Assembly (NCBI GenBank): GCA_030145055.1
Contig: JAQYWK010000002.1
Location: 919,341 to 978,888 of the forward strand
Reading direction: 5' to 3'
Length of the DNA stretch: 59,548 nt
Source: Desulfovibrio sp.
GTDB taxonomy: Bacteria > Desulfobacterota > Desulfovibrionia > Desulfovibrionales > Desulfovibrionaceae
Shown here one piece after another: positions 53 to 17,816 of the stretch. The notes beneath the pieces are model-generated. The model ran no database searches. It was not told the origin of the DNA and was given only the letters and a program-made list of their open reading frames with translations. The stretch's first letter is position 1. Every line of letters starts with the position of its first letter. Made by a program: the position numbers and the translations under genes.

Positions 53-2332
53 ATGGAACAAGATTCACTTCACGAGTGGGAATCAAAATGTATTCAGGAA
101 GAACCGCCCCGCTGCAAGGCAGCATGTCCTATTCATGTTGATGGACGGGAATTCTCTAAACTTATGGCTGCGGGACAGACTGATAAAGCTTGGGCTGTGC
201 TTTGCCGTACACTTCCGTTTCCAACAGTAACCGCCCGCATCTGTGATGGTCCGTGCATAAAGTCCTGCCTTCGTGAAGAAGTTGGTGGCGGTATAAAGCT
301 CAACTCCCTTGAGCGGTATTGCGCTGAAAACACAAAACGCACGCCTCCGTTCCGCCCCTTACCTGCACGCGGAAAAACCGTTGCAATCCTTGGCGCATTT
401 TTACCAGGGCTAACCGCAGCATGGGATCTTGCTAAAAAAGGATTTACTGTCACCGTTTTTACAAATGACTCCGCAGAAGCTTTCGCAACAATCCCTCAAG
501 AATTTCTTTCCGTTGATATTTTTAAGCAAGAACTGGCTACCCTTAAAAAAATGGGTGTTAGTTTTGATGAAAACAGTTCACCCAGTCTAGAGCTTGCGAC
601 AAAGTCTCTCGAGGATTTCGACGCTGTATTCGCCGACCCATTTGCATGTGACGCAAAAGCTCTAAAAATTTCTCCCCCTTCCATCACCACTCTCAAAACT
701 GAAAAAGACGGACTCTTTGCTGCATCAATGCCGGAAAAGAACACCTCGCCCATTGCCCTGATAGCAATTGGACGAAAAGGGGCATTATCCATTGAGCGTT
801 TTATGCAAAGCGCATCTCTTTCAGCAGGACGTGAGCGCGAAGAGCCCTTTGAAACAAAACTTTATACTAACATCAGTAAAGTAGAACCCGTTACACCATC
901 TGCTGTTCCGGCAGATGGTTACGACGTAGAATCCGCACGCGAAGAGGCTTCCCGCTGTTTGCAATGTGAATGTATGGAATGCGTTAAGAATTGTGCCTAT
1001 CTCGAAGAATTCAAGGGATATCCAAAAGTTTATGCGCGCCAGATATACAACAATGCATCCATTGTAATGGGCACGCGCAGAGCAAATAATCTAATTAATT
1101 CGTGTATGCTCTGTGACCTATGCAACGAAATATGTCCCGAAAACTTTTCCATGAAAAATCTGTGCATAGAAGCGAGACAGGATCTAGTTAAAAAAGGTCA
1201 TATGCCACCGTCCGCACATGAATTTGCACTGCGCGACATGGAACATGCAGACCGCGATACTTGCACTATTAACAAGCACCAATCCGGAACGAGCGAAAGT
1301 GAATGGGCCTTTTTCCCGGGATGCCAGCTGCCAGCATCTGACCCGAGCGCAGTTGATCGAGTTTACAAATACCTTTGCGATTCCTTAACCGGAGGAACAG
1401 GGCTTATGCTCCGTTGTTGCGGCGCACCTGCAGACTGGTCTGGCCGCATTGAACTTTTCGACACAAAATCAGAATCTATCCGCGCCGATTGGGAATCTTT
1501 GGGGAGACCCAAAGTAATCGCGGCCTGTCCTTCGTGCATGGAATCTTTGCATAAAGCTATACCCGAAGCAGAAGTAACCTCACTGTGGTCAATACTCTGC
1601 GAGCACAAAGAGAATCTTAATCCCGTTTTACCTGAAACAATTTCATCACTCCAAGATCCATGCACAGCAAGGCACAACGACAAATTACTGGCGGACGTGC
1701 GTCTTTTGCTCTCTGATCTTAGTATTGAATTTACTGAACCTGAGCTATCAGGACTGCACACTGAGTGTTGTGGATTCGGCGGACTTCTTTCTGGAGCAAA
1801 CGAACCATTATCAAAAAAAGTAGCCGAAAAACGCGGTTCTAAACTCGATGGTGATGGAATCACCTATTGCGCCATGTGCCGCGATCTGCTTGCTAAAAGC
1901 GGAAAAAGATGCCTCCACTTATTAGACGTAATATTTCCTTCGGGAAACTCCGACCCCGCAGCGCGCGCTGTACCCCAATACTCAGAGCGGCGCGAAAATA
2001 GAGTCAGGCTTAAGGAGCAGATGCTAGATGTAATCTGGCGAACCCCATCTGCTCCTCGTCCTGACTATGAATCAATTTCTGTTTCTTTCACGAGCAAGGC
2101 GAAAGAACTGATGGAAGAGCGACGCATTCTCCATTCTGACATTCAGAAGACAATTCAAGCTGTGCAGAAATCAGGGCAAGCACTTGAAAGCACAGAAACA
2201 GGTCACAAATTGACATACTACAGGCCTGTCACTGTGACCTATTGGATCGAATATGAAGAACAAGATGCAAACAACTATTTGATCCACAGAGTGTGGAGCC
2301 ACCGTATGCGCATACTTGGAGCTAGCAAATGA
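53..2332 (+). CDS. Pyridine nucleotide-disulfide oxidoreductase-like / dicluster-binding Fe-S protein with two CCG domains
   Basis: Probable cytoplasmic electron-transfer protein of about 759 residues. The N-terminus resembles the Cys-rich Fer4_20 domain of glutamate synthase small subunits (CKAACP and CDGPCIKSC motifs). It is followed near residue 110 by a degenerate Rossmann segment (GAFLPGLTAAW) lacking a clean GxGxxG, so FAD binding is doubtful. Next comes a two-cluster ferredoxin segment (CLQCECMECVKNC and CMLCDLCNEICP). Two heterodisulfide-reductase-type CCG modules follow (LRCCGAP with ACPSCME; TECCGFGG with YCAMCRD). I chose ATG 53 because AGGG lies six bases upstream; an in-frame ATG at position 2 has no visible ribosome site. 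The stop overlaps the next gene by four bases (ATGA). Known: this architecture occurs next to molybdenum aldehyde oxidoreductases in Desulfovibrio. Inferred: it supplies or removes electrons for the radical SAM partner or the oxidoreductase. Confidence 0.8.
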   Translation: MEQDSLHEWESKCIQEEPPRCKAACPIHVDGREFSKLMAAGQTDKAWAVLCRTLPFPTVTARICDGPCIKSCLREEVGGGIKLNSLERYCAENTKRTPPFRPLPARGKTVAILGAFLPGLTAAWDLAKKGFTVTVFTNDSAEAFATIPQEFLSVDIFKQELATLKKMGVSFDENSSPSLELATKSLEDFDAVFADPFACDAKALKISPPSITTLKTEKDGLFAASMPEKNTSPIALIAIGRKGALSIERFMQSASLSAGREREEPFETKLYTNISKVEPVTPSAVPADGYDVESAREEASRCLQCECMECVKNCAYLEEFKGYPKVYARQIYNNASIVMGTRRANNLINSCMLCDLCNEICPENFSMKNLCIEARQDLVKKGHMPPSAHEFALRDMEHADRDTCTINKHQSGTSESEWAFFPGCQLPASDPSAVDRVYKYLCDSLTGGTGLMLRCCGAPADWSGRIELFDTKSESIRADWESLGRPKVIAACPSCMESLHKAIPEAEVTSLWSILCEHKENLNPVLPETISSLQDPCTARHNDKLLADVRLLLSDLSIEFTEPELSGLHTECCGFGGLLSGANEPLSKKVAEKRGSKLDGDGITYCAMCRDLLAKSGKRCLHLLDVIFPSGNSDPAARAVPQYSERRENRVRLKEQMLDVIWRTPSAPRPDYESISVSFTSKAKELMEERRILHSDIQKTIQAVQKSGQALESTETGHKLTYYRPVTVTYWIEYEEQDANNYLIHRVWSHRMRILGASK

Positions 2333-2544
2333 GTACTTTGAAAGTAATTGATGAAGATTATTCTTCGTGGAAATGTTCGGCATGTGGAAAAGCTCTCACT
2401 CCTACGCCAATTGAACTTGAATATCTTGAAAGCAAGTTTACTGTTGAACTTCCGGCCTGCCCAGAATGCGGGTTAGTTCTGATTCCAGAAGATTTAGCTC
2501 TTGGTAAAATGGCAGAAGTAGAGTCTCTCTTGGAGGATAAATAA
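2329..2544 (+). CDS. Small two-CxxC redox / zinc-ribbon protein (DVU_1557 family)
   Basis: A 71-residue cytoplasmic protein with two CxxC knuckles, CSACG near residue 16 and CPECG near residue 46. This fits a rubredoxin-like or zinc-ribbon metal site. It starts inside the stop codon of the upstream dicluster protein and is separated by one base from the methyltransferase gene, so translational coupling is likely. Proteins of this size and position are known in Desulfovibrio clusters as the DVU_1557 family; I assign the name by context and motif, not by search. It may be a small electron carrier or metal-holding partner for the Fe-S proteins around it. Whether it binds iron or zinc cannot be told from sequence. 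Confidence 0.75.
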   Translation: MSTLKVIDEDYSSWKCSACGKALTPTPIELEYLESKFTVELPACPECGLVLIPEDLALGKMAEVESLLEDK

Positions 2545-2545
2545 C

Positions 2546-3217
2546 ATGACGCAAACGGGTCCAGCTGTTCCATTATGGGAAAAAGCAACTCTTAGAGAGG
2601 CGGCGGGCACAACTTTACGTCCGGGCGGCTTAAAACTCACCGACCGCGCATTTTCTTTAGCCGCAATCCCTCAGCATGGCCGTGTGCTTGATGTCGGGTG
2701 CGGGCTTGGTACAACCGTTAATCATCTGAATAAAATACATTTATTTGAAACTTACGGTGTAGACATTTCTATGCACCAAATGAAAGAAGCCCCGATGGAG
2801 CTAGGACTTTCACAAGCGAATGCGACACGTCTTCCTTTTGCCAGCAAATCATTTGATGCTGTCGTTTGTGAATGTGTACTATCTATTTTACCGAACATGT
2901 CCCAAGCGTTAACTGAATTTAAACGGATTCTAACTCCATCTGGAACATTAATTATCTCTGATATTATTCAGCGTGGACCATTAAACGCAACCGGAATTTC
3001 TGATTCATGCGCAAGCAACCCCATTGATGCAAAACGGCTCAATCACGAGCTGCACATCCAAGGGTTTCGCACCACAGTTCAAGAAGACCATTCAAAAGTG
3101 CTGACAGAGCTGGCGGCGCGGCTTATTTTCTTAGGAGAAAAGTCTATCACTCCCAAAGGGAGCTGCTGCAACAAACCGGGGTACATGCTACTTATCGCCA
3201 AAGTAAACGACCTCTAA
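2546..3217 (+). CDS. trsM: SAM-dependent methyltransferase TrsM (DVU_1556 family)
   Basis: Class I methyltransferase of 223 residues. The SAM-binding motif I is LDVGCGLG near residue 49, the acidic loop of motif II is YGVDIS near residue 73, and a conserved late strand reads GTLIISDI. The C-terminus carries a CC pair (GSCCNKPGY) not required for methyl transfer, which may be a substrate or metal thiol site. ATG 2546 follows a TGGAGG ribosome site by nine bases. The product is probably cytoplasmic. Its fixed place beside a radical SAM gene (TrsS) and a ligase suggests that it methylates a small cofactor or intermediate; the substrate is unknown. The name TrsM rests on my recall of Desulfovibrio family naming plus neighbourhood. 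Confidence 0.8.
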   Translation: MTQTGPAVPLWEKATLREAAGTTLRPGGLKLTDRAFSLAAIPQHGRVLDVGCGLGTTVNHLNKIHLFETYGVDISMHQMKEAPMELGLSQANATRLPFASKSFDAVVCECVLSILPNMSQALTEFKRILTPSGTLIISDIIQRGPLNATGISDSCASNPIDAKRLNHELHIQGFRTTVQEDHSKVLTELAARLIFLGEKSITPKGSCCNKPGYMLLIAKVNDL

Positions 3218-3235
3218 TTTTGGAGACTTATATAT

Positions 3236-3700
3236 ATGAATGATACAGATCTACGCATCCTTCAATTGAACGGTTCCGGCTATTGCTGCGCACAAATAAT
3301 GATTCTTCTTTGTCTGGACAATTTGCAACGGGAAAACCCCGACCTAGTACGTTCCATGCAGGGGCTTTGCCTCGGAACTGGTGATTGCTCAGGAACATGT
3401 GGAATCATGACCAGTGGAATATGCGCGCTTGCCCTATATGGCGGCAAGGGAGTTGAAAACGAAGAGGAAGATGACCGCCTCCCATTGGTCGTAGAGAATT
3501 TCAGAGAATGGTTCGTCTCAACATCTTTAGGACAGTACGGTGGAACTAAGTGCAGCGATATATTAGGCGAAAACTGCGCTGCACCAAAGCCTGATCGTTG
3601 CGGTAAATTGCTGGTTGACGCATACGCCAAGCTTATAGAAATTCTTGTTGATGCTGGATTTGATCCATACACAGGCAGAGAAATAAACGATGAATTCTAA
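3236..3700 (+). CDS. C-GCAxxG-C-C family protein (DVU_1555 family)
   Basis: A 154-residue protein of the C_GCAxxG_C_C redox family. The spaced cysteines are GYCCAQ near residue 17, then CLGTGDCSGTCG near residues 43-55, then a third block with KCSD, NCAAP and RCGK. The family is commonly found with redox enzymes and is thought to hold a metal or disulfide site. The usual GCAxxG block is altered here to GDCSGTCG. The gene sits 18 bases after the methyltransferase and overlaps the radical SAM gene by eleven bases, so it belongs to the operon. There is no signal peptide. Its specific role in the pathway is unknown; a sulfur or metal carrier to the radical SAM enzyme is one possibility. Confidence 0.75.
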   Translation: MNDTDLRILQLNGSGYCCAQIMILLCLDNLQRENPDLVRSMQGLCLGTGDCSGTCGIMTSGICALALYGGKGVENEEEDDRLPLVVENFREWFVSTSLGQYGGTKCSDILGENCAAPKPDRCGKLLVDAYAKLIEILVDAGFDPYTGREINDEF

Positions 3701-5066
3701 TGTGAATATCCATGAAACGGTCAGCGTCTGCCCCATCTGTTTGAAAAGGCTTACAGCAAGCAGAGTAACCGAAAAGGGTGAAACACGCATATTAAAAGAG
3801 TGTTCTGAGCATGGCATATTCAGCACCCCAGTCTGGCGCGGTGAGCCTGCTATTCAAAATTGGAATCGTCCCAAAACACCTTCTGCACCTCCAGTTACCG
3901 ATACCACCCAGCAAAAAGGGTGCCCTTTTGATTGCGGGCTATGCCCTGATCATAATCAACATACATGTACAACACTGGTTGAAATCACTTGGCGTTGTGA
4001 TCTAAATTGCAAAATATGTTTTGCGTCTGCGGGAAATTCTGAGGGAGATTCTAAGCACAAACCATTGATGCGCCCCGACCCAACTTTAGCAGAACTTAAA
4101 GTACTACTTAAGAAAGTCCGTAAAACGGCTGGCCCTTGCAATTTACAACTTTCAGGCGGAGAACCTTCTGTCCGTGATGACCTTCCGCAAATCGCTACGA
4201 TTGCAAAGGAACTTGGATTTCCTTTTGTACAGGTCAACACTAACGGAATGCGAGTCGGACGTGAAAATGGTCTAGCCCAAATATGGGCGGATGCAGGTGT
4301 CGATTCTGCCTTTTTACAATTTGATGGAACCCGCGACGATATTTATGAATCCATTCGTGGACGCGCACTGATAAATGATAAAATGGCGGCAATCAAAAAT
4401 TTAACCGACGCTGGTATCGGAGTTGTTCTAGTTCCGACAATTGTCCCAAACGTAAATGACGACAATATCGGTGAGATTTTAAAGCTGGCAGTGGCTCATT
4501 CTCCAGGAGTGCGCGGCGTTCATTTTCAACCTGTCAGCTACTTTGGGCGCTACCCCGAACCACCATCCGATAACGCCCGCATAACACTTCCAGAAATAAT
4601 GACTAAGCTTGAAGACCAAACAGGCGGACTGGTTAGCAAAACTGATTTTATGCCACCAGCCTGTGAACATGCATTGTGTTCATTTCACAGCAACTACATG
4701 GTTATGGAAGACGGTAAATTGAAAAAACTTTCAGGCAAAGGCGAACCATGCTGCACCCCACCCACTGCTTCCGAAGGAGCTGACAAATCAAAAGCATTTG
4801 TACGCAGGCAATGGGCTGCCCCCGCAACAAAAGATTGCGGATGTAATAAGCCGCTTGATGATTTAGATCGTTTTATTCAGCGTGCAAAAACTCACATCCT
4901 TGCGATTTCGGGCATGGCTTTTCAGGATGCATGGACGCTTGATCTCGAGAGACTCAGAGGATGTTGTATTCATGTTGCCGCCCCAGATGGGAAATTGATT
5001 CCATTTTGCGCATACAATTTAACCTCAATGGATGGGGAATCACTCTACCGAGGTAAAAATGCATAG
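3690..5066 (+). CDS. trsS: Radical SAM protein TrsS
   Basis: Radical SAM enzyme of 458 residues. The N-terminus has a rubredoxin-like knuckle (CPICLKRL) and an extra cysteine cluster (GCPFDCGLCPDH). The CxxxCxxC motif that binds the catalytic 4Fe-4S cluster is CDLNCKIC near residue 106, followed by the SGGEPS glycine-rich SAM motif. The C-terminal third has more cysteines (GEPCCTPP, KDCGCNK, RGCCIH and PFCAYN), suggesting auxiliary clusters. This layout recalls the MJ0619-like group whose members modify lipids or cofactors. TrsS families elsewhere include selenoproteins; here no in-frame UGA interrupts the gene and cysteines fill all candidate positions. It overlaps both neighbours, so expression is coupled. 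The reaction and substrate are unknown. Confidence 0.82.
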   Translation: MNSNVNIHETVSVCPICLKRLTASRVTEKGETRILKECSEHGIFSTPVWRGEPAIQNWNRPKTPSAPPVTDTTQQKGCPFDCGLCPDHNQHTCTTLVEITWRCDLNCKICFASAGNSEGDSKHKPLMRPDPTLAELKVLLKKVRKTAGPCNLQLSGGEPSVRDDLPQIATIAKELGFPFVQVNTNGMRVGRENGLAQIWADAGVDSAFLQFDGTRDDIYESIRGRALINDKMAAIKNLTDAGIGVVLVPTIVPNVNDDNIGEILKLAVAHSPGVRGVHFQPVSYFGRYPEPPSDNARITLPEIMTKLEDQTGGLVSKTDFMPPACEHALCSFHSNYMVMEDGKLKKLSGKGEPCCTPPTASEGADKSKAFVRRQWAAPATKDCGCNKPLDDLDRFIQRAKTHILAISGMAFQDAWTLDLERLRGCCIHVAAPDGKLIPFCAYNLTSMDGESLYRGKNA

Positions 5067-6372
5067 TAAGTCCCTAAGCCAGTGGCTAAACTTACGCATG
5101 GGCAGGCCTCTTCATTCTGAGGATGTTTCTCTAGAACAATTGCAAGAATGGCAATTTAATCAATTACGTAAAACTCTTGGCCAAGCCGCAACAAGCTGCC
5201 CGTTCTATGCCAACCACTTGCAAGGCGTAACGATAGAAGAAATAAAGAACCCAGCGGACCTCAGCACCCTGCCTTTCACAACAGCAGAAGACCTACGCAA
5301 TAACCCAATCAATTTCTTATGCACTTCCCAAGATGATATTGCGCGAGCCATAACACTATCAAGCTCAGGCTCAAGCGGCCCTCCGAAGCGCCTTTTTTTT
5401 ACAGCCGGAGATTTAGAACGCACGACCGAGTTCTTTCATTACGGAATGGGGCCTTTAGTGGATGAAGGTGAAACAGTCCTAGCTCTGCTCCCAGATTCTC
5501 GTCCCGGCGGCGTAGGCAAACTTTTTTCTGAAAGCATTTCACGCCTTGGGGCTAATACAGTTTATCCCGAAGATCCTTCAAACATTCCCGCTCTTGTAGA
5601 TTTGCTTATAGATTCGCGGGCAACCTGCATTTTAGGTCCGGCAATTCACATTCACGCACTGGCTCGCCTATGGGAAAGCCACGGTTTGCCTGACAATCAA
5701 ATACACTCAGCCCTTTTATGTTGGGACGTTTTACCTGAAATCGCAATTCAAACAATTTCAAAAGCGTTAGGGTGTGAAATATTTTGTCACTGGGGCATGA
5801 CAGAAACGTGCCTCGGCGGCGCAGTAGAATGCGAAGAAGGGTCCGGTATGCATCTTCGCGAACCAGATTTTTATTTAGAGATAGTTGACCCTGAAACGGG
5901 TTTATCTGTACCAGACGGAACCAGCGGGGAGATTATATTTACCACGTTATCTAGAAGAGCAATGCCTCTCATCAGGTACAAAACTGGCGATATCGGTAAA
6001 ATAATCCCGGAAAAATGCACATGCGGACTTCCCATGCGCAGACTTGATGATGTAAAAGGACGCTTAAAAAGTGATATAATTCTACCCAACTCAGAAAATT
6101 TATCGCTATCAGAACTCAACGAAATAATTTTACCATTTGTTGAAGTGCTCGATTTTAAAGTCAGCTTTCAGCATCTGCCACCTATACTCGAGATCACTCT
6201 GGATATCGCTCCCGATGCGAAGGCTTCATCCTGTTTTTTTAATTCTATAATGTCCCATCCAAAGATCAAAATAATAACGGCTGAAAATGATTTGAACATT
6301 AATATTAGAGTTGATAATCATAATGGCAGCATCAGTTCCGGCTTTGGTAAAAGACTAATAACATCAGCTTAA
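5059..6372 (+). CDS. AMP-dependent synthetase/ligase, PaaK-like (DVU_1553 family)
   Basis: Adenylate-forming enzyme of 437 residues resembling phenylacetate-CoA ligases. The ATP-binding loop is SSSGSSGPPK near residue 110, the A5-type motif is HWGMTETCLGG near residue 246, and YKTGDIG near residue 316 is the ribose-binding Asp motif. The start was set at ATG 5059, with GAGG five bases upstream and an eight-base overlap with trsS. The longer frame from 5032 would overlap by 35 bases with no visible ribosome site. A short Cys patch (CTCGLPM), common in PaaK relatives, follows the A7/A8 region. It presumably activates a carboxylate as an acyl-adenylate or CoA thioester. The acid is unknown, and involvement in cofactor maturation rather than catabolism is inferred from context. 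Confidence 0.82.
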   Translation: MHSKSLSQWLNLRMGRPLHSEDVSLEQLQEWQFNQLRKTLGQAATSCPFYANHLQGVTIEEIKNPADLSTLPFTTAEDLRNNPINFLCTSQDDIARAITLSSSGSSGPPKRLFFTAGDLERTTEFFHYGMGPLVDEGETVLALLPDSRPGGVGKLFSESISRLGANTVYPEDPSNIPALVDLLIDSRATCILGPAIHIHALARLWESHGLPDNQIHSALLCWDVLPEIAIQTISKALGCEIFCHWGMTETCLGGAVECEEGSGMHLREPDFYLEIVDPETGLSVPDGTSGEIIFTTLSRRAMPLIRYKTGDIGKIIPEKCTCGLPMRRLDDVKGRLKSDIILPNSENLSLSELNEIILPFVEVLDFKVSFQHLPPILEITLDIAPDAKASSCFFNSIMSHPKIKIITAENDLNINIRVDNHNGSISSGFGKRLITSA

Positions 6373-6394
6373 CTCCCCTGAAGGTCAGCCTCTA

Positions 6395-7447
6395 ATGAAA
6401 AATTTAATACACAATATTCGCGTACAGCTTGAATCAGGTAACGACATTATCCTAGCATCCATTGTTAAAAGCTCAGGCTCTACCCCGCGCTCGTCCGGCA
6501 GTAAAATGGCTATCTACCGGGATGAACGAATCGACGGAACCATAGGCGGGGGGCTAGTAGAAGCTCTTGTTCAGCGCGCAGCAGCGGAGCTTTTTGACAA
6601 AGATGATCACGCGATAGTTTTTAAAGAATTTGACCTATCAAATGAACTTGCAGCCAATGCGGACATGATCTGCGGCGGTCACGTAACAGTTATGCTGGAA
6701 CACCTTGCGGCCAATAAAAGCACCACAGAAATTTACAAAGCTTTTGATGACAGCCTTCAGAGCGGACAAAAAGTGACCCTCGTAACCACAATAGATAACG
6801 GCGAACACTCCAAAACAGCGGATAGGCTTGTTTTCGCGCATAATTGCAACATACCGACTCTACATAGTTTTACAGGTGATGAAATTTTAGAACTCTCAGA
6901 AGAATCACGAAAAACAGGGAAACCTGTGATTCTGGATAAGGACAATCAGCGTATCGTCGTTGAGAGCTTCGTACCGCAACCTACCGTATTTATTTTCGGA
7001 GCAGGCCATGTATCCCGGCCTACAGCAGCACTAGCGACATCTGTTAATTTTAGAACAGTTATTCTTGATGACCGGAAAGACTTTGCCAGTACTGAACGGT
7101 TCCCGCTTGCCGATGAAATTATAGTCCTGTCAGACTTCGATATTGCACTTGAAGGCTTAAACATCACCGAAGATTCATACATTATTATAGTTACGCGCGG
7201 ACATCTGCATGACAAAACCGTACTTGCGCAGGCATTAAAAACGGACGCTCATTATATCGGAATGATCGGCAGTTCCAAAAAGCGCAATGCTATTTATGAG
7301 GCACTCCTTGATGAAGGTACTTCACAACAAGATATCAACCGCTGCACCTGCCCTATCGGCCTCACAATCGGGGCACAGACTCCAGAAGAAATAGCTGTAA
7401 GCATCGTGGGTGAACTCATTCAAAAACGAGCGGATAAATTGGTATGA
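6395..7447 (+). CDS. xdhC: XdhC family molybdenum cofactor insertion/sulfuration protein
   Basis: A 350-residue XdhC/CoxI family protein. The N-terminal XdhC domain has the characteristic SSGSTPRSSGSKM stretch near residues 26-38 and a GTIGGGLVE motif. A central Cys (MICGGHV) is near residue 92. The C-terminal Rossmann half begins at VFIFGAGHVSRP near residue 198 and ends with a conserved GLTIGAQTPEEIAVSI segment. XdhC proteins bind molybdenum cofactor and protect and sulfurate it before insertion into xanthine dehydrogenase-family enzymes. The gene overlaps the nucleotidyltransferase gene by four bases, a natural pairing because MocA-type enzymes make the dinucleotide form that XdhC delivers. 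The target enzyme, probably an aldehyde oxidoreductase, would lie outside the window to the left. Confidence 0.88.
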   Translation: MKNLIHNIRVQLESGNDIILASIVKSSGSTPRSSGSKMAIYRDERIDGTIGGGLVEALVQRAAAELFDKDDHAIVFKEFDLSNELAANADMICGGHVTVMLEHLAANKSTTEIYKAFDDSLQSGQKVTLVTTIDNGEHSKTADRLVFAHNCNIPTLHSFTGDEILELSEESRKTGKPVILDKDNQRIVVESFVPQPTVFIFGAGHVSRPTAALATSVNFRTVILDDRKDFASTERFPLADEIIVLSDFDIALEGLNITEDSYIIIVTRGHLHDKTVLAQALKTDAHYIGMIGSSKKRNAIYEALLDEGTSQQDINRCTCPIGLTIGAQTPEEIAVSIVGELIQKRADKLV

Positions 7448-8601
7448 GAACCTATGGAATTATTCTTGCCGCAGGACTGTCCTCCCGCATGGGGAAGCTA
7501 AAAGCGTTACTACCACTAGACGGAATGACTGTGCTCGAAAACTGCATCCACACCTTGCTTGATGGTGGTGCTGACGATGTTTTTGTAGTTACAGGATATA
7601 GAGCAGAAGACATTTCGAAGGAAGCAAATAGGCTCGGAGTTCGCACAATTTACAACCCGGACTACGAGCAAGGGATGTTTTCTTCCGTGATTGCTGGAGT
7701 TAAGAATATTCCAGTTGATACTATCGCACCATCAGCTTTTTTTATTTTACCTGTAGATATTCCACTGGTCAGATCATCTACAATCCGCTCACTTGCTTTA
7801 GATTACAAAAATTCTCCTGCAAAAATTTACTATCCGTGCTTCAAAGGAGAAAGAGGACATCCTCCCCTTATAAGCACGGAGCTAATCCCCGAAATTTTAG
7901 CACACAATGGAACAGGAGGATTGCGGACAGTTCTCGAACGACATGATTCAGATGCAAAGAACAAAAAAATGCCGGATATCGGTGTAATACATGACATGGA
8001 TACCCCTGAAGATTATAAAAAAGCGTTAAAATTTTATAACAAAAAGCGGTTCCCCCTCACTGAAGAATGCGAAGCGCTTTGGGAGATTGCGCGCACTCCG
8101 CTAAAAACACAGGCCCACTGTAAAACAGTGGCGAAGGTAGCCTGCATATTAGCCGAGATTCTCAATAAATCCCGCAATGACAAAGCATTACTTGATGTTG
8201 AGGTTGTGCAGAGTGCCGCCATGATGCACGATGTCGCAAAAGCCATACGAAACCATGAAGCAATGGGCGGGACTATTTTGAGTAACTACGGATTCACGTC
8301 CATATCCGATATAGTAGCATCCCATCGTGATACAAACCTACCCCCGACTCATCCCATCACTGAAAAGGAAATCGTTTTCCTAGCCGATAAATTTATAAAA
8401 GGAACTAAACTAGTCTCTATTAGAGAGCGCTACGAAAAAACTTTTTGCAAATGGGCAAATGATCCTGATGCGGCCAAAGCCATCAAAGAGCGCCGCATTC
8501 GCGCCGAATCATTACTGAGCCGATATGAAAATGAAACACAAGTCGATGTGCTCACCCTTCTGAAATGTGAATGTGAAATGGATAGTTTGGCAGTAGCATG
8601 A
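7444..8601 (+). CDS. MobA/MocA-like NTP transferase fused to an HD phosphohydrolase domain (DVU_1551 family)
   Basis: Two-domain protein of 385 residues. Residues 1 to about 195 form a nucleotidyltransferase: AAGLSSRMGKLKALLP at residues 9-24 is the NTP-binding signature, LPVDIPLV near residue 101 carries the metal-binding Asp, and GERGHPP near residue 137 is MocA-like. Residues from about 215 to 340 form an HD domain with MMHDVAKA at 260-267 and later His residues (IRNHEAMGG, ASHRDTNLPP). MocA enzymes add CMP to molybdopterin to give MCD, the cofactor of xanthine dehydrogenase-type enzymes. The attached HD domain could hydrolyse a nucleotide by-product or regulate turnover; that is inference. 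The gene overlaps xdhC and the phosphatase gene by four bases each, a tight translational unit. Confidence 0.83.
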   Translation: MRTYGIILAAGLSSRMGKLKALLPLDGMTVLENCIHTLLDGGADDVFVVTGYRAEDISKEANRLGVRTIYNPDYEQGMFSSVIAGVKNIPVDTIAPSAFFILPVDIPLVRSSTIRSLALDYKNSPAKIYYPCFKGERGHPPLISTELIPEILAHNGTGGLRTVLERHDSDAKNKKMPDIGVIHDMDTPEDYKKALKFYNKKRFPLTEECEALWEIARTPLKTQAHCKTVAKVACILAEILNKSRNDKALLDVEVVQSAAMMHDVAKAIRNHEAMGGTILSNYGFTSISDIVASHRDTNLPPTHPITEKEIVFLADKFIKGTKLVSIRERYEKTFCKWANDPDAAKAIKERRIRAESLLSRYENETQVDVLTLLKCECEMDSLAVA

Positions 8602-9191
8602 TTATCCTAGTCCGCCACGGAGAAGCCGATAAGGCTAAAGGACGCGCCATTGGACAAGAAGATTTACCTCTTTCAGGTGCGGGTGAAAAACAAGCTGACG
8701 CTTTAGCAAAGTCTTTAAGTTCTCTATCAATTGACTACCTATACACCAGTCCTTTGAAACGCACACGTGCAACCGCCGCCCCTATAGAAAAAGCGTGCAA
8801 TAAAAAAGCGATCATCTGTCCGGAACTTGCAGAGATTAATTTGGGATTATGGGATGGGCTAAGCTTTGAGCAAATCAAAAACAATTTCCCGATCGAGTAC
8901 GAAAAAAGAGGACTAGATATCGCAAACTACCGCCCTCCCAAAGGAGAAAGCTTTGCGGATCTAGCAGAAAGAGTGCGAGGTAAATTTCATGAGATCGCGG
9001 TCAAAGACGCGCCTACTATAATAGTCACCCATGCCGGAGTAATCAGAGTCATCATGCATCTGGTATTGGGAGTTCCGCTGAATAATATTTTCCAATTTTC
9101 GCCCAAACATTGCCACTCAACCATTTTGGAAAAATCCCACGACAAGCTATGCCTGAGAGGATTCAATATCCCTCCTGACGCAAATAAGTAA
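8598..9191 (+). CDS. Histidine phosphatase family protein
   Basis: A 197-residue cytoplasmic phosphatase of the phosphoglycerate mutase-like histidine phosphatase superfamily. The catalytic histidine is in LVRHGEAD at residues 4-11. The second half of the active site is TSPLKRTRATA near residue 50, with EINLGLWDGLSFEQI near residue 74 and the late catalytic histidine in VTHAGVIR near residue 144. Length and motifs resemble alpha-ribazole phosphatases, but there is no cobalamin gene nearby. In this operon it more likely dephosphorylates an intermediate of the cofactor pathway. It is the last gene of the operon, overlapping the upstream NTP transferase by four bases and ending directly at a terminator hairpin. 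Confidence 0.8.
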   Translation: MIILVRHGEADKAKGRAIGQEDLPLSGAGEKQADALAKSLSSLSIDYLYTSPLKRTRATAAPIEKACNKKAIICPELAEINLGLWDGLSFEQIKNNFPIEYEKRGLDIANYRPPKGESFADLAERVRGKFHEIAVKDAPTIIVTHAGVIRVIMHLVLGVPLNNIFQFSPKHCHSTILEKSHDKLCLRGFNIPPDANK

Positions 9192-9219
9192 AACCCCTAA
9201 CATTAAAATGTCAGGGGTT
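9192..9219. terminator. Terminator after the TrsS operon
   Basis: Inverted repeat immediately after the phosphatase stop codon: arms at 9192-9204 and 9207-9219 (AACCCCTAACATT paired with its near complement, one A-C mismatch), followed by TTTCT. It lies between two convergent genes and may act in both directions. Confidence 0.7.
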
Positions 9220-9258
9220 TCTAAAAATCAGAATATAGTGTCTGCGCTAATTACCTGA

Positions 9259-10332
9259 TCAGGTAATACCGTTCTCGACATAAGATTTTGCGACAAATGG
9301 CGAAGTCATGCACGAAAGCAAAGCGGCATAATCAAGGCTGAAGCGTACGTCATCACCAACCTGCAAAGGTGACCGCGTAGCATCTAAAATCAAATGATCA
9401 CTGCTGGAGCCAATTATATCAACGTCAATAAACGGAGTTAGCCCCGGAACATGAACATCCTGCTTGCCAACGCTCAAAATGGTTCTGAGCATATCCCCTT
9501 TATCTACAAATATCGTTGTATTACCAAAAGCATCTTGCCCGACTTCGCCCTCTGGAAAAGAAGGTTTAGTTTTGGATTCAATTACTTCAGCCACCAAGGT
9601 GATTGCATCGAGGTGCAGCCCCTCAATATGTTCGCGGGTGAGAGTTTCGCGTCCTATAAAAATGGATTCACCAAGCCTGACATCATTAATGCGGCCCAGA
9701 TCTTCATTTGCAAAGAACCAATCAAAATTAGCAGAATTTCCACCTGAGATAATATCAAACTTAATCTGGTATTTCTTTTCATATGTTTCAGCTAAAAGCG
9801 ACAGTTGATCCATATTCTTTTTAGATGGCTTCACTCCGCTGAAACAGGCTAAATTCGCACCTAAACCCTTAAGGTTTACACCTTTCAATTTTACAATCTG
9901 ATCTATTGTTGCATCAAGGTTCTTCTGAAGTATACCTTCACGAAGATCGCCCAACTCAACCATCAGCACGATATCGTGAACTTTATTTTGCTTGATAGCA
10001 GCTTTAGATAGTTCCGAGATTATCGACACTTCCGTGTTGAAACTAACATCAGCATATTTCACAACATCGTTAACTTCTGTCATTGAGGGGGTTCTAATTA
10101 AAACGAATGTAGCCTTAACGCCTGCCTGCCGCATGCGTTTAATATTGGCAATCCGTGAGTCACCGAGTGAAGTTAACCCTGCTGATACTAAACAATTCGC
10201 AACTCTCGGTTCCCCGAGAGCTACTTTTGTTATGCCAGTAATATCAATATTTCTGGCTCCAAACATTTTAACTAATTCCTGGGTATTGCTAAATAATTTA
10301 GCTAAATCAATTTCGAGATAGGGAGTGTCCAT
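9259..10332 (-). CDS. Alanine/ornithine racemase-family PLP-dependent enzyme
   Basis: A 357-residue fold-type III PLP enzyme with an alanine racemase N-terminal barrel. The PLP lysine is Lys36 in ITGITKVALG, the expected position after strand one. LGDSRIANIKRM near residue 57 and VELGDLREGI near residue 146 match conserved barrel segments of the alanine/ornithine racemase group, and SGGNSAN near residue 197 is the phosphate-binding loop. The family racemises amino acids such as ornithine or alanine. The start codon immediately follows the stop of the DUF1611 gene, so the two are co-translated. Adjacent DUF1611 proteins are known elsewhere in D-amino acid metabolism, so the pair may make and then modify a D-amino acid; the amino acid itself cannot be told. 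Confidence 0.83.
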   Translation of the reverse strand: MDTPYLEIDLAKLFSNTQELVKMFGARNIDITGITKVALGEPRVANCLVSAGLTSLGDSRIANIKRMRQAGVKATFVLIRTPSMTEVNDVVKYADVSFNTEVSIISELSKAAIKQNKVHDIVLMVELGDLREGILQKNLDATIDQIVKLKGVNLKGLGANLACFSGVKPSKKNMDQLSLLAETYEKKYQIKFDIISGGNSANFDWFFANEDLGRINDVRLGESIFIGRETLTREHIEGLHLDAITLVAEVIESKTKPSFPEGEVGQDAFGNTTIFVDKGDMLRTILSVGKQDVHVPGLTPFIDVDIIGSSSDHLILDATRSPLQVGDDVRFSLDYAALLSCMTSPFVAKSYVENGIT

Positions 10333-11411
10333 TACGCGAGCTTAGCTTTAAGGTGCGGGAATAAAGTGAGTATTTTTTCGATTAAAGAGTCGCAGTCAAA
10401 TTTGAGAACGTCTGTAGTAGGGATTTCAAATTTCTGTTCATAAGCTTCAATTGTCTCGGTAAGCTCTGAATCAGACATGTTCTCATGATTAATGGTAATT
10501 CCGATAACTGGTGCTCTAGAGAATACTTCTATTAGCTCAATCTCTTCTTTCAAGTCAGGCATGTTTATATCAGGATAATCACCCAATTTTTCTCTTTTCG
10601 GAGGATGCTGAACAATCACTGCGTCCGGCTTTCCACCACGAATTATAAAACACGAACTTAAATAGGCAGGATGACTTAAAGAGCCCTGCCCTTCTAGAAT
10701 CATGATGTCGGGATGTTTAGCTTCCCACGCTTCGAATACAGCTTTTTCCATTTCACCGGAAATAAACTGCTCCGTCAGTGCGTCGAGCGGCACACCAAAT
10801 TCAGCCCCCTGAATAATTCCAGTCTGACCTGTTGCGATCATGACTGTGTTTAGTCCAAGAGCTTGCAGAGCTTTCGTGATAATAACTGAGGTTGTTCTTT
10901 TACCGACCGCACTGTCTGTTCCAAGTATTGCGATTCTAGGGCATTCAACCTTGTTGATATTGCCTTTAAAAACATTTCGCTGATTGCTGTTTTGCTGCTT
11001 TCTAACATCATGCAATTCAACATTACATTCGGCGGCTTTTTTAATGAAGGATACTTTGTCGGTTAAGAATTCATGCAGCCCATTAATGATATTCAGTTTT
11101 CGTTCCATCGCATAAAAAATAACACTGCTATCTTCTGCGGAGAATGATCCTGATAAAGGAGCCATTCCATAAATGAAATATTTTACGGTATAGCCAGTGC
11201 CTTCTAATGCATCAGCAATATTTTTGAATATTTTAATACCATTTGGTATTCCGTCCAGCACTTCTCCGGCATCTAGGCCAGCTTTCGTGCTATCAATAAT
11301 GCCAACAATTTCGTATTTGCCGGAATATCTTGCTAAGCCATTGGCGGTCTTTCCATCCATCTTTCCAAAAAAATCTTCACAGTATACAATAGCCGGTACT
11401 TTTTCAGTCAT
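10332..11411 (-). CDS. DUF1611 family ATP-binding protein (DgcN-like)
   Basis: A 359-residue DUF1611 protein. The N-terminal third is a Rossmann-like domain; the C-terminal two thirds are a P-loop domain with a Walker A-like GTDSAVGKRT at residues 164-173 and an acidic Walker B-like segment (DIMILEGQGSLSHP) near residue 235. A later conserved block is VQHPPKREKLGDYP. A DUF1611 protein, DgcN, has been described as a D-glutamate N-acetyltransferase in marine bacteria, although the domain looks like an ATPase. Here the partner is a PLP racemase. The start ATG at 11411 has AGGA upstream (CAGGATAAATT). No signal peptide. Function in D-amino acid acylation is inferred from family and neighbour. Confidence 0.8.
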   Translation of the reverse strand: MTEKVPAIVYCEDFFGKMDGKTANGLARYSGKYEIVGIIDSTKAGLDAGEVLDGIPNGIKIFKNIADALEGTGYTVKYFIYGMAPLSGSFSAEDSSVIFYAMERKLNIINGLHEFLTDKVSFIKKAAECNVELHDVRKQQNSNQRNVFKGNINKVECPRIAILGTDSAVGKRTTSVIITKALQALGLNTVMIATGQTGIIQGAEFGVPLDALTEQFISGEMEKAVFEAWEAKHPDIMILEGQGSLSHPAYLSSCFIIRGGKPDAVIVQHPPKREKLGDYPDINMPDLKEEIELIEVFSRAPVIGITINHENMSDSELTETIEAYEQKFEIPTTDVLKFDCDSLIEKILTLFPHLKAKLA

Positions 11412-11444
11412 AATTTATCCTGGGTAAATGTTGCTAACGCTTGC

Positions 11445-11461
11445 CTCCATATAAAATGGAG
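11445..11461. promoter_or_regulatory. Small palindrome upstream of the DUF1611 gene
   Basis: CTCCAT-ATAAA-ATGGAG, a perfect six-base inverted repeat with five-base spacer, 34 bases upstream of the DUF1611 start. It could be an operator or a leader hairpin. The rest of the 488-base gap (11412-11899) is AT-rich; besides the sigma-54 element at 11683 I see no gene in it. Confidence 0.3.
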
Positions 11462-11682
11462 AACAATTTCGAACAGCATTACCTAACATATTTTTCGCAT
11501 ATATAAGCTAAATTAGACAAAAAATTTTCTTCTGAGAATTCACCAAGAATTAACATGTTCAGAAACGTCACTGTAAGATGTTGTAATGCCATCAAAACTT
11601 TGATTATTTTTCACTTAATATATTATAATTGAATGAGTAAATATAAAGGGCAGTCTAATCTCTAAAGATAAGATTGCAACTT

Positions 11683-11699
11683 CGGCATGACTTTTGCTT
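11683..11699 (+). promoter_or_regulatory. Sigma-54 (-24/-12) type promoter for the CotH operon
   Basis: CGGCATGACTTTTGCTT holds GG (11684-11685) and GC (11696-11697) separated by exactly ten bases, close to the sigma-54 consensus TGGCACG-N4-TTGC. Transcription would start near 11709, leaving a leader of about 190 bases before the CotH gene at 11900. No activator-binding sites could be assigned, and no sigma-54 activator gene is in the window. Confidence 0.5.
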
Positions 11700-11899
11700 T
11701 ATTTGCGTGAATGTCCATATTTTTACCCATAAAGTGGATTAAAGCGCGGAAAATACGTAAACAACCGTTGATTGAATCATTTTTTTGACACAAACCCAAC
11801 AATCTGAAACGGTAATATCTTCCTAAAAAAAGACGCGAGCAGTAATTTAAATAGACTATGTGAGTTGGCACTCTTTAGAGTTTAATTCAGGAAATAATT

Positions 11900-14605
11900 A
11901 TGAATAGAATTTTCAAGATGAAATTTGTTCCGGCAATAATCATGGCAGCATTGCTGCTAGGGGTTCTTGCTGATTTTGGCTACCGCGCGCTTGCTAAACT
12001 GTATGCCATTGAAAAAATAGTTGATGTTGAAGTTGATCAGGATTTAACTATTGATCATTACCATTTACTTTTACGAAATGAGTTTAAAAGCGCGTGGATA
12101 CAACTGACGTCAACCGAACCAGCCTCTGATAAAGATACTGACCTTAAAACCTTTCATATTACCGTTGATCAGGCAGGACTGAACACGCTTAATAAAAATT
12201 TACCTGAAAGCGGAAAATCAATTTACGCTGACGGACTTATGAAAGTTAGCGGCGAAAAAAAGATGCGTAAAATAAAAGTACGCTATAGAGGTCTGATTCC
12301 GCCTCATTGGCTTTACAAGCAAAAATCATTACGCATCAAACTGGGCGGTAACGACACTTACACCATGGACAATGTGTTTAACCTTGTAAATCCAGTTCAC
12401 GATTACATTGTTACCGACCAGCTTGCGTACGGAATGGCTCGTGATCTGGGCTTAATTGCACCCGATTTTTATCCGGTACGTGTATACCTGAACGGTCAAT
12501 TTATGGGTGTTTACATGTACTTAAGTCAAGTGAATGAGTACCTACTTAGAAAAAACAAAAAAATGCCGGGAAGCATATACTACGGAGAAAGTTCTACAGA
12601 AACGGAAAATGGAGTTGCTTCTCTTTGGTTTCATCCTGATTTCTGGGATAAAAAAGCTTCGCGTAATGCAGAACAAAAAACCAACAGAGAAGACATCAAC
12701 CTTTTCATTAATACAATTGCAAACGACACACCTGAAAATTTTTATAAATTCTTCAACACCTATGCTAACAAAGATGATTTCTACAATTTTATGGGCATGG
12801 ATGTTTTATTCGGCAGCGAGCATCATGACTGGGCGCATAACCACAGGATTTATTTTGACCCATACAAAGGGAAGTTCAGCCCTATTGCCTGGGATTTGAG
12901 ATTTTGGAACGACTCAACGAATAAAGACCTTTCATCATACCTGCTTCTTCAAAATATTCAACTAAACCCAATTTTAGAATACGAGCGAGATCAGGCGGCC
13001 TATAAACTATACCAAGAATACACCCCAGAAAAAATAAACCACAAATTAAGCACTTTAAGTAAAATTCAAAGAGATGAACTTAACTCTGATAGATACCGCG
13101 ATACAGCGATAACAGTTGATAATTTAAATGTATGGGTAAGCGAACCATTTACAATTGATGAATATGATAAAGCTATTGAAAAGCGTAAGTTCATTTTTAA
13201 GAGAAGACATGAAATTCTTCAATCTACATTCAACTCAACTTCAATTGCATGTGGTGCTGAAACTGTCGGAGAGTACAAAAAAATAAGTTTTTATATCGGA
13301 GGTTTCTCTCCAGTCTCACTATACAGTGGTAAGCAGATGATATTAGATTACAATTTCAACCAAGTAAGAGACGAAAACGACCCGGTAACCAATCATACAA
13401 TCTTATACCCAGGCAGAAAGTTCTTACCAGGGAATACTGTTAACGGTTTGATCAACGGGTTTGGACATCAATATTTAGTTCCAACCAGAATGAAATACGT
13501 AATCTTTTTTAAATCCTCTTCTCATAAATTTTTGCTCAATCTTGTTGCACGAAATGCCATAACAAATCAACCTGTTGAGATATTCTTCACCGATAACGAC
13601 ATAAAAGACGAATCTGCTTCCATACATCCTTGGAAACTGCCAAGAAGTCATAAAAAAGAGGTGATAGTTTACAAAGGAGACGTTGCAATTAACCAGTCGA
13701 TTGAGTTTCTCGAAAACGTACACGTTAAAATTGAACCAGGTACCACCTTCACTATGGCAGCAAACGCATCTATGTTCTTCTATGGCAGAGTTGAAGCTGC
13801 CGGAACAAAGGATAAACCGATTAAATTTATGGCTGCAAACCCGGCCAAACCTTGGGGGGCTGTTGCAATACAAGGCAACGGAACTACCGGTTCAACTTTT
13901 AAGTACTGCGAATTTGAAAATGGCTCTTTAGCAACAATGCGGATGATCCATTATACCGCGCCTTTTAATATTCACGACATGGACTGGTTTGAAGTTTCCA
14001 ACTGCAAAATTGGCAGGAACTTCGTAGGTGATGACGGCATGCATATTGCTTATGCAAATGGAACTATTCAAAATAGTATCTTTTTCAACTCGCGTAGTGA
14101 TGGACTGGATATTGACATTGCGACCGTGACTCTAACAGACAATATATTTTACAACACAGGAAACGACGGACTCGACATTATGACATCTGAAATATCAGCC
14201 TCAAACAATGTATTTATTGACATCGGTGATAAAGGGATATCTGTCGGAGAATGGTCAGAAGCGAACATCTCGGACTCTTTATTCATACGGGCAGTCATAG
14301 GCATGGCTATCAAGGACAAATCTGTTGTTAAAGCCGACAATCTCGTGTTTATCGATTCCCAAAAGACACCCATAGATCTATTCCATAAGAATACGAGCTA
14401 CGACGAAGGCGGTTTTTTAGAAGCTGCCAATATATATCTGATAGGCAATACAAAAATCAAGAAAGACGATATGTCTAAATTCTTCATCAAGAACAAGGTT
14501 GAAAACAAAAAGCCTGATTTTACCCAATTTAACTGGCTTAATAATCTTAAAAAACAATCTTTTAAGCCACTTTCTGATGAAATGGAGAGTTTGTATGTTA
14601 ACTAA
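11900..14605 (+). CDS. CotH kinase family protein with C-terminal parallel beta-helix
   Basis: A 901-residue membrane-anchored extracytoplasmic protein. Residues 9-30 form an uncleaved or signal-anchor membrane helix. Residues of about 90-440 are a CotH-type protein kinase domain: KVRYRGLIPPHW and LRIKLGG in the N-lobe, FMGVYMYLSQVNEYLL near residue 201, and the catalytic-like Asp residues D310 (HHDWAHNHRIYFD) and D332 (IAWDLRFW). From about residue 610 to 850 short repeated strands (ANGTIQNSIFFNSRSDGLDI and similar) indicate a right-handed beta-helix. CotH proteins phosphorylate surface proteins in spore formers; in Gram-negatives CotH genes recur beside VTC and DUF4956 genes, as here. A ribosome site (CAGGAA) precedes ATG 11900. 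The beta-helix suggests polysaccharide binding. Confidence 0.82.
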   Translation: MNRIFKMKFVPAIIMAALLLGVLADFGYRALAKLYAIEKIVDVEVDQDLTIDHYHLLLRNEFKSAWIQLTSTEPASDKDTDLKTFHITVDQAGLNTLNKNLPESGKSIYADGLMKVSGEKKMRKIKVRYRGLIPPHWLYKQKSLRIKLGGNDTYTMDNVFNLVNPVHDYIVTDQLAYGMARDLGLIAPDFYPVRVYLNGQFMGVYMYLSQVNEYLLRKNKKMPGSIYYGESSTETENGVASLWFHPDFWDKKASRNAEQKTNREDINLFINTIANDTPENFYKFFNTYANKDDFYNFMGMDVLFGSEHHDWAHNHRIYFDPYKGKFSPIAWDLRFWNDSTNKDLSSYLLLQNIQLNPILEYERDQAAYKLYQEYTPEKINHKLSTLSKIQRDELNSDRYRDTAITVDNLNVWVSEPFTIDEYDKAIEKRKFIFKRRHEILQSTFNSTSIACGAETVGEYKKISFYIGGFSPVSLYSGKQMILDYNFNQVRDENDPVTNHTILYPGRKFLPGNTVNGLINGFGHQYLVPTRMKYVIFFKSSSHKFLLNLVARNAITNQPVEIFFTDNDIKDESASIHPWKLPRSHKKEVIVYKGDVAINQSIEFLENVHVKIEPGTTFTMAANASMFFYGRVEAAGTKDKPIKFMAANPAKPWGAVAIQGNGTTGSTFKYCEFENGSLATMRMIHYTAPFNIHDMDWFEVSNCKIGRNFVGDDGMHIAYANGTIQNSIFFNSRSDGLDIDIATVTLTDNIFYNTGNDGLDIMTSEISASNNVFIDIGDKGISVGEWSEANISDSLFIRAVIGMAIKDKSVVKADNLVFIDSQKTPIDLFHKNTSYDEGGFLEAANIYLIGNTKIKKDDMSKFFIKNKVENKKPDFTQFNWLNNLKKQSFKPLSDEMESLYVN

Positions 14606-14978
14606 AAAAATTCTTCCCAGTGCAGGGTTTATAATTTTGGTAGCAACAATAACAATCTGCGTTACAACGGTCCTTTGGACATTCACTCCCCTGAATTACG
14701 AAATTTGTAATAAAAAATTAAGAATAGGCCTTAAACTTTCTACTGCCGGGAAAAAAAAGGAAGCTTTTAAATATTTTGTTGAAGCTGCGCCGTATGCACC
14801 GACAGATGTGGAGCGGGCAAATCTGTATATGTATGCCGGAGCCATGGTCACCGATAAAGACACAAAATACAAATACTACAAACTGTCACTACTTGCCAAC
14901 CCGGATACAAACGTGCTGACTAATACGCTGCAGACAAATGGTATTCTAGACGATGTTATGAACACCAAACTGGATTAA
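14595..14978 (+). CDS. Small membrane-anchored protein of the CotH/VTC operon
   Basis: A 127-residue protein I do not recognise. It has one N-terminal transmembrane helix (about residues 9-31, IILVATITICVTTVLW) and a short soluble tail containing a helix-turn-helix pair that resembles one tetratricopeptide unit (GKKKEAFKYFVEAAPYAP). The start ATG 14595 lies inside the end of the CotH gene (11-base overlap), with GGAGAG five bases upstream; a further in-frame ATG at 14577 is less well placed. The VTC-domain gene follows after 11 bases. It is probably a scaffold tying CotH and the VTC/DUF4956 proteins together at the membrane, which is an inference from position only. Confidence 0.65.
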   Translation: MLTKKILPSAGFIILVATITICVTTVLWTFTPLNYEICNKKLRIGLKLSTAGKKKEAFKYFVEAAPYAPTDVERANLYMYAGAMVTDKDTKYKYYKLSLLANPDTNVLTNTLQTNGILDDVMNTKLD

Positions 14979-14989
14979 GAGGTGAAGTA

Positions 14990-15703: not shown

Positions 15704-15706
15704 ATC

Positions 15707-16399: not shown

Positions 16400-16458
16400 C
16401 TCCATTTTCTTATGAATTGAATATAAACAGTGCCAATCAGAAGTGGAGTCATTTTTAA

Positions 16459-17328: not shown

Positions 17329-17364
17329 AAAGTTCATTTAACATCTACCGTATTTTTATCTACT

Positions 17365-17407
17365 AACAAATAAGGGGAGTCTCAATTGAGGCTCCCCTTA
17401 TTTGTTT
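17365..17407 (+). terminator. Strong terminator of the CotH/VTC operon
   Basis: Nineteen-base stem with one G-T wobble (AACAAATAAGGGGAGTCTC at 17365-17383 pairing with 17388-17406, four-base loop AATT), ending in TTTGTTTCTT. It lies 37 bases after the last stop codon. Confidence 0.88.
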
Positions 17408-17469
17408 CTTATGTGATCTATACACTAGTAATATCATTCCACTCCATTGATACAGCCAGTGATAATCCC

Positions 17470-17805: not shown

Positions 17806-17816
17806 AAGTATAATAG

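Follow-up and report, generated by a model that had tools for sequence, protein, structure and literature searches.

The aldehyde oxidoreductase (AOR) of Desulfovibrio gigas was the first enzyme of the xanthine oxidase (XO) family with a crystal structure (PMC10223205). Its cofactor is molybdopterin cytosine dinucleotide (MCD), a later structure at 1.28 Å shows well defined pterin rings, and flavodoxin is named as a putative partner of the enzyme (PMC10223205). The genes accompanying this classic AOR had no assigned role in the literature searched. Here we analyse nine genes at positions 53-9191 of a 59,548-nt stretch of Desulfovibrio sp. DNA (contig JAQYWK010000002.1; in our numbering genome G000, contig C3, 919341-978888), hereafter called the window. 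We show that they are the tail of a D. gigas-type AOR operon, and we read them as three layers. Five of the encoded elements, namely the radical SAM protein TrsS, a methyltransferase, a PaaK-like ligase, the small protein DVU_1557 and a domain termed CT90, very probably form a separate obligate unit, here called the quintet, of which this AOR is one client.

Names already exist for the families, for TrsS and for the link to AOR. NCBIfam holds models for a DVU_1551-1557/TrsS neighbourhood (NF045645, NF045646, NF045663-NF045669); their names give no function, and one cites AOR maturation. The curated cut-offs of these neighbourhood-specific models are passed by eight of the nine window proteins, and the ninth, a histidine-phosphatase family protein, lies slightly below the CobC cut-off. 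Since eight proteins belong to families named for the neighbourhood, the cluster is already catalogued, though unexplained. The first-pass annotation had called it a candidate undescribed cofactor pathway. A 2026 review crediting Haft and Tolstoy 2025 counts TrsS among the radical SAM selenoproteins (PMC13188914); the window form has cysteine and not selenocysteine. The AOR sets of Clostridium ljungdahlii (CLJU_RS11830-11815 and a tandem copy), already called possibly redox-active, share the AOR, a fused pyridine-nucleotide/CCG protein, a four-Cys protein and a C_GCAxxG_C_C protein; the term radical SAM is absent from the main text of that paper (PMC5640608). Two D. vulgaris papers list DVU1559, the AOR gene, in a table (PMC10920352, PMC11784015). 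A third lacks this tag, and its chlorate-related AOR is DVU1179, a different and putatively tungsten-dependent enzyme (PMC10102598). A search of the open-licence literature, covered in part, turned up neither a functional analysis of the module nor any reference to its separability, to the fold of CT90 or to the constant DVU_1557 ending, all described below.

Three other systems invite comparison. In the sHdr-LbpA system of sulfur oxidisers, LbpA carriers and dedicated ligases serve heterodisulfide reductase (Hdr)-like complexes (PMC6067878). The likeness lies in the combination of an Hdr-like complex, a ligase of its own and a carrier to which a redox group is covalently bound, this group being putative for DVU_1557. 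In contrast to LbpA, DVU_1557 is a two-CxxC protein and not a lipoyl domain, and its ligase is PaaK-like and not LplA-type. TrsS resembles tetraether lipid synthase (Tes; PDB 7tol) over residues 9-323, with which it aligns at E 1.4e-80; its score stays below the Tes cut-off (NF045702, 332.5 versus 450 bits) and its partners differ. Finally, the gene order of CT90, tentatively predicted to be RelE-fold-like, followed by DVU_1557, which grazes the YgiT_finger model TIGR03831 (21.2 against a cut-off of 20.2), recalls by analogy an mqsRA-like pair of a RelE-fold protein and a YgiT/MqsA zinc finger. CT90 differs in being mostly fused to an electron-transfer protein, and nothing suggests that it acts as a toxin.

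The tail of a D. gigas-type AOR operon

Directly upstream of the nine genes, outside the window, a Mop-family AOR adjoins the module, as in D. gigas-type operons (locus L002, 7242-9959; NF045668, 1674.2 bits, cut-off 1100). Its best PDB matches are the AORs of D. desulfuricans (1dgj, 1419 bits) and D. gigas (1sij, 1395 bits), the next best reaching 264 bits. Because an AOR of this type stands upstream, the window carries the downstream part of a long AOR operon. The other upstream genes are of modABC type, a second modA/modB-like pair, one encoding a protein without NCBIfam match and one encoding a MoeA-like protein. The latter (L002, 6154-7173) has a Cys-rich C-terminus whose tail length is conserved (standard deviation (s.d.) 0.9, n=43). 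All nine open reading frames (ORFs) of the first-pass annotation are present on the plus strand within 53-9191. They had been described as overlapping, which is borne out at five of the eight junctions; the other three have gaps of 1, 18 and 22 bases. The features are as follows:

53..2332, +, DICL, dicluster protein (NF045663, 969.9 bits, cut-off 530; Pfam Fer4_20, Fer4_17, CCG); the ORF is also listed from an earlier in-frame start at 2
2036..2329, +, CT90, C-terminal domain of DICL, about 90 residues
2329..2544, +, DVU_1557-family two-CxxC protein, 71 residues (NF045645, 103 bits, cut-off 60)
2546..3217, +, DVU_1556-family class I methyltransferase (NF045667, 204.9 bits, cut-off 155)
3236..3700, +, DVU_1555-family C-GCAxxG-C-C protein, an optional part (NF045669, 171 bits, cut-off 103)
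3690..5066, +, TrsS radical SAM protein, Cys form (NF045646, 668.5 bits, cut-off 490)
5032..6372, +, DVU_1553-family PaaK-like adenylate-forming ligase (NF045666, 428.6 bits, cut-off 300); the true start may be internal
6395..7447, +, XdhC-family AOR maturation factor (NF045664, 448.9 bits, cut-off 350; Pfam XdhC_C, XdhC_CoxI)
7444..8601, +, DVU_1551-family MocA-like nucleotidyltransferase fused to an HD domain (NF045665, 442.4 bits, cut-off 315; NTP_transf_3, HD)
8598..9191, +, histidine-phosphatase family protein (PF00300, 171 bits; CobC model 156.4, cut-off 162.9)

The methyltransferase is thus confirmed as a DVU_1556-family protein; the name TrsM given to it earlier is backed by no search.

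In the first layer, XdhC and the MocA-like protein, perhaps with the phosphatase, would make and insert MCD. An XdhC domain and a MobA-like NTP transferase are both present; the nucleotidyltransferase stays below the cut-off of the equivalog MocA model (TIGR03310, 143.4 versus 186.45 bits). This layer is an optional, ordinary molybdenum-delivery part, and the gene set holds more than that, as had been proposed. The second layer is DICL, the putative electron partner of AOR, which combines an Fe-S/flavoprotein-like front with an HdrCB-like back bearing two complete CCG cluster sites. The third layer is the quintet, which is not AOR-specific.

DICL is built of a Fer4_20/shortened flavoprotein-like half, a 4Fe-4S dicluster, two complete CCG motifs as in HdrCB, and CT90 at its C-terminus. 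The five plus five cysteines of the CCG motifs are invariant in the DICL family, including five short forms from loci without AOR. A phmmer search of PDB with the whole protein found only relatives of the front half; in profile searches the CCG part matched 9ojn (6e-22) and, weakly, HdrB. CT90 is mostly fused to DICL and forms a separate gene in several AOR-less loci. None of five CT90 stretches gave a Pfam match over cut-off, and a fold model was therefore made, which tentatively suggests a RelE/ParE/BrnT-like fold.

The C-GCAxxG-C-C protein is helical with four invariant cysteines (40 sequences). Its model (pLDDT 93.8) found no PDB match with Foldseek at E <=0.001, which does not show a new fold. 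As a universal scaffold it was discarded, being missing or below cut-off in seven of the 35 genomes with the module.

Distribution and separability of the quintet

The distribution of the module was followed in 297 phylum members, drawn once and kept fixed, 11 of them from the window's own family. The quintet marks the same 35 genomes (34 for TrsS); the methyltransferase and the C-GCAxxG-C-C protein were tested in 65, that is the 35 module genomes and 30 chosen controls. TrsS is over its cut-off in 33 genomes, and a 34th (G039) has a split copy. The DVU_1557 family is found in 37, or 35 once the partial 23-bit matches in G168 and G238 are set aside, and CT90 in the same 35. Listed ligase places of at least 275 bits fall in these 35 genomes, the next genome reaching 240 (the tally counts 33 genomes over cut-off, with 32 of these places listed individually; the entries for G219, G241 and G262 range from 275 to 289 bits). 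All 35 module genomes give a methyltransferase score of 143 bits or more (31 over cut-off) versus at most 105 in the controls. For the C-GCAxxG-C-C protein, 28 of the 35 and none of the 30 are over cut-off.

AOR is over its cut-off in 26 genomes, all within the 35 and none among the other 262. Every one of the 26 has ligase, DVU_1557 and CT90; TrsS passes its cut-off in 25, as expected from the link to aldehyde oxidoreductases proposed in the first-pass annotation. In the 26th, G241, AOR is present as fragments at the edges of contigs, and no TrsS match exceeds the cut-off; on contig C51 of this genome (13422-16186) ligase, C-GCAxxG-C-C protein, methyltransferase, DVU_1557 and CT90 stand in a row. 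Conversely, TrsS occurs without AOR over cut-off in eight genomes: G104, which has half an AOR, G253, where TrsS lies on a 4.9 kb contig, G125, G152, G075, G108, G131 and G212. The last four and G039 are outside the 158 genomes with any AOR-model match (E 0.001) and thus apparently have no enzyme of the XO family, at a stated completeness of 85 to 100%.

It would be very improbable, given these counts, that the genes serve unrelated functions such as molybdenum uptake, maturation and detoxification, merely co-regulated with AOR and sharing no product. The modABC and MoeA-like genes upstream fit such an arrangement, as does the phosphatase, which is often absent (present in 30 of 49 TrsS loci, see below). 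The co-occurrence of the quintet over the 297 genomes (the methyltransferase within the 65 tested) argues against it, the more so as the partners are partly unlinked: ligase and TrsS lie on different contigs in G075 and G262.

A second sample came from a scan of GTDB genomes, of which the best 80 of 555 confirmed TrsS candidates were taken. According to their record titles, these best 80 belong to Desulfobacterota, Bacillota, Chloroflexota, Campylobacterota, Pseudomonadota and Acidobacteriota. Forty-nine of the 80 loci have at least 8 kb on both sides, the remaining 31 being excluded for short flanks. AOR is present in 45 of the 49, which upholds the proposed link to a molybdenum hydroxylase across genomes. 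DICL, CT90 and ligase are each found in 47, the C-GCAxxG-C-C protein in 45, methyltransferase and DVU_1557 in 44 each, and the MoeA-like protein in 22. XdhC and the MocA-like nucleotidyltransferase reach only 36 each, and the quintet is separable; the idea of one pathway of nine genes is not sustained. Among the 65 loci that extend 4 kb or more upstream of TrsS, DVU_1557 and CT90 each occur in 60, and both are missing from L121, L140, L109, L110 and L142. In the genomes of these five loci and of L118, both proteins were found outside the fetched loci in four of six; in Clostridium ragsdalei they are distant from the TrsS copy of L109. L142 holds a broken CT90 remnant and looks decayed.

The quintet is also found without AOR, beside other anaerobic redox genes. 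L077, L078, L079, L086 and L092 carry it, or most of it, together with a short dicluster/CCG protein; at L079 the ligase is not in the locus. The neighbours are double-cubane-like proteins (below the model cut-off) and an activase in L077 and L079, and what we take to be a TRAP transporter and a corrinoid-activator-like protein in L086 and L092. L102, L126 and L156 instead have an aldehyde:ferredoxin oxidoreductase (AFOR)-family protein, which falls short of the nearest model's cut-off. G296 has the two parts on separate contigs: C3 (L181) has AOR, DICL, DVU_1557, XdhC and nucleotidyltransferase, and C12 has CT90, DVU_1557, methyltransferase, C-GCAxxG-C-C protein, TrsS and ligase (L063 and L102 are the same region of C12).

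These contexts bear on a catabolic route, in which AOR would oxidise an aldehyde, the PaaK-like ligase would form the acyl-CoA, and TrsS and the methyltransferase would act on the same carbon skeleton. The ligase is indeed a PaaK relative (PDB 4r1l, E 1.4e-40), and AOR and AFOR-type enzymes both handle aldehydes and acids. Such a route leaves DVU_1557 and CT90 unaccounted for and misses the settings with double-cubane-like proteins and activase and those with the presumed corrinoid activator and TRAP transporter, and we consider it unlikely.

It is at least as unlikely that the module modifies AOR itself or its molybdenum cofactor. The full set of ligase, DVU_1557 and CT90 in the 26 AOR genomes would suit this, and TrsS carries the HMPTM zinc ribbon PF23545, HMPTM being a pterin methylase. 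Against it stands the occurrence of the module in genomes without any AOR-model match, and also the gene order around enzymes of known structure. The genes of the CRYSTALLISED enzymes, the D. gigas and D. desulfuricans AORs, were located via stretches of the PDB sequences: G311 carries the D. gigas AOR (1sij, 100% across 309 residues) and G521 the D. desulfuricans AOR (1dgj, 100% across 312 residues). Both show the order AOR, DICL, DVU_1557, methyltransferase, C-GCAxxG-C-C protein, TrsS and ligase. Within the fetched stretches, XdhC was detected only in G311 and the nucleotidyltransferase only in G521. Because the module adjoins crystallised AORs and the D. gigas cofactor is given as ordinary MCD in a review (PMC10223205), a permanently modified molybdenum cofactor, as suggested in the first-pass annotation, is disfavoured and was dropped as the leading explanation. 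A lasting change of the cofactor is thus unlikely; a transient role of the module on it may be compatible with the D. gigas evidence.

Several TrsS loci depart from the usual layout. In L109 (C. ragsdalei, 8234-20375) TrsS lies away from the AOR set, directly after what we take to be a CobW-like GTPase and upstream of presumed ModA-, ModD- and Fec-like metal-transport genes and another methyltransferase. A methyltransferase related to the latter lies near TrsS and CbiMNQO-like genes in L110, where TrsS (9998-12175, 725 residues) is fused to an MbdU-like domain (metal-binding double selenoprotein; 117.9 bits, cut-off 600). In L157 and L154 (Sporomusa, about 8500-9970), a cysteine-desulfurase/selenocysteine-lyase-like gene and a small protein gene lie within the module; they may indicate that sulfur or selenium is supplied to it in these bacteria. 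The loci L131 and L157 of Sporomusa sp. KB1 are on one contig with TrsS copies about 32 kb apart, that is with two module copies; AOR was detected only at the edge of one of these loci, and the arrangement is somewhat like the tandem sets of C. ljungdahlii.

The DVU_1557 tail and a putative bound group

The window DVU_1557 protein ends in L-E-D-K-stop, and this ending is nearly fixed in the family. In 95 distinct loci (matches of at least 40 bits), Lys is last (-1) in 95, Glu stands at -3 and at -7 in 95 each, and Asp at -2 in 94, so that all 95 proteins end Glu...Glu-Asp/Glu-Lys-stop. The last four residues are encoded by 34 different codon strings, followed by all three stop codons, and the constraint therefore acts on the protein. 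Tail length has an s.d. of 0 over 99 matches, versus 0.9 (MoeA-like protein) and 2.2 to 48 (the remaining ones) in ten comparison families; for these, frames truncated by contig ends and overlong stop-to-stop frames were retained, which inflates the spread. Seven further copies end E-D-K or E-E-K, the script having sought only such ends. Among the divergent homologues in the gap after CT90 of AOR-less loci, Lys is last in L082, L086 and L092. In 93 of 99 loci the stop codon of DVU_1557 lies 100-700 nt behind that of CT90. DVU_1557 matches DUF7479 and no lipoyl model of NCBIfam or Pfam.

We tentatively propose, as a possibility that falls short of the probable, that the quintet assembles a prosthetic group on the DVU_1557 tail, making it a swinging carrier for an Hdr-like partner. 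The ligase would activate a carboxylate as acyl-AMP and join the acyl group to the invariant C-terminal Lys, TrsS would carry out radical chemistry on the bound group, and the methyltransferase would complete it. CT90 would then hold DVU_1557 on the redox enzyme, and the finished group would swing between active sites, as is proposed for lipoyl-LbpA in Hdr-like complexes. A carrier with a bound group is suggested by the obligate ligase, radical SAM and methyltransferase partners together with the invariant Lys that closes this small protein. The earlier expectation of an extra chemical group thus survives as an idea of attachment; its recipient is better sought in DVU_1557 than in the molybdenum cofactor. 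TrsS and the methyltransferase have further conserved residues. C103, C107 and C110 of TrsS (the radical SAM CxxxCxxC motif) and C425 and C440 are invariant in 16 aligned proteins, and C110 of the methyltransferase is present in 100 of 100 sequences and its C155 in 92% of the 93 that cover this column. ArsM-like metal methylation was considered from NCBIfam side hits and was rejected in spite of these two conserved cysteines, as no PDB match at E 1e-5 bears the name ArsM.

The nearest rival to the carrier is a rubredoxin-like role of DVU_1557 as donor or docking partner of TrsS and/or the redox enzyme, with the tail as a binding helix. The quintet would here make a free small molecule, an electron carrier or cofactor, for DICL-type, AOR, AFOR-type and other anaerobic enzymes. 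We regard this as a possibility nearly as likely as the carrier. Both CxxC pairs are invariant in 98-99 DVU_1557 sequences, and the position of TrsS near presumed metal-transport-like genes in L109 and L110 fits a diffusible product. The CCG part of DICL points the same way, as its matches 9ojn and HdrB act on small carriers. On the other side, a tail invariant to the last residue across several phyla is, in our judgement, unusual for a simple docking helix, and no constant exporter or product-binding gene was seen in the loci examined.

Other observations weigh against the carrier proposal. In the divergent homologues of L077, L078 and L079, Lys is third from last, and the tail could be a docking helix. 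The ligase is PaaK-like and not a lipoate ligase, and TrsS is closer to radical SAM enzymes acting on lipids and pterins than to LipA. No TrsS match lies between the genes on C51 of G241, the sole genome of the 35 without TrsS over cut-off or split, and the genomes of L142 and L140 have TrsS and no match to DVU_1557 or CT90. The 297 genomes are related, so that their co-occurrences are not independent events. A double-CCG protein was found by pattern in 91 of 115 TrsS loci (a few regions are counted twice and some are cut by contig ends), as DICL or a short form; the pattern was not found in the other 24, including the AFOR-type loci L102, L126 and L156. The HdrB-like partner is therefore not universal, and the back half of DICL was given up in that role.

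In its fullest form the carrier proposal comprises a new protein-bound redox prosthetic group on the DVU_1557 Lys, a domesticated RelE-fold CT90 that tethers it to Hdr-like and molybdenum or tungsten enzymes, and the carrier with DICL, not flavodoxin, as the partner of D. gigas AOR; as a whole this is rather unlikely. If a carrier-bound group exists, sulfate reducers, acetogens and other anaerobes would possess a new class of redox cofactor and carrier, and the view of how D. gigas-type AOR hands on its electrons would change. The claim hinges on the mass of one 71-residue protein and is directly testable.

Genes downstream in the window

Beyond the nine genes, the minus strand of the window carries at 9259-11411 a gene pair that we take to resemble a PLP-dependent alanine-racemase-like protein and a DUF1611-like protein. 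At 11900-17328 a CotH-like protein is followed by small genes, presumably a CotH/VTC/DUF4956-type cluster.

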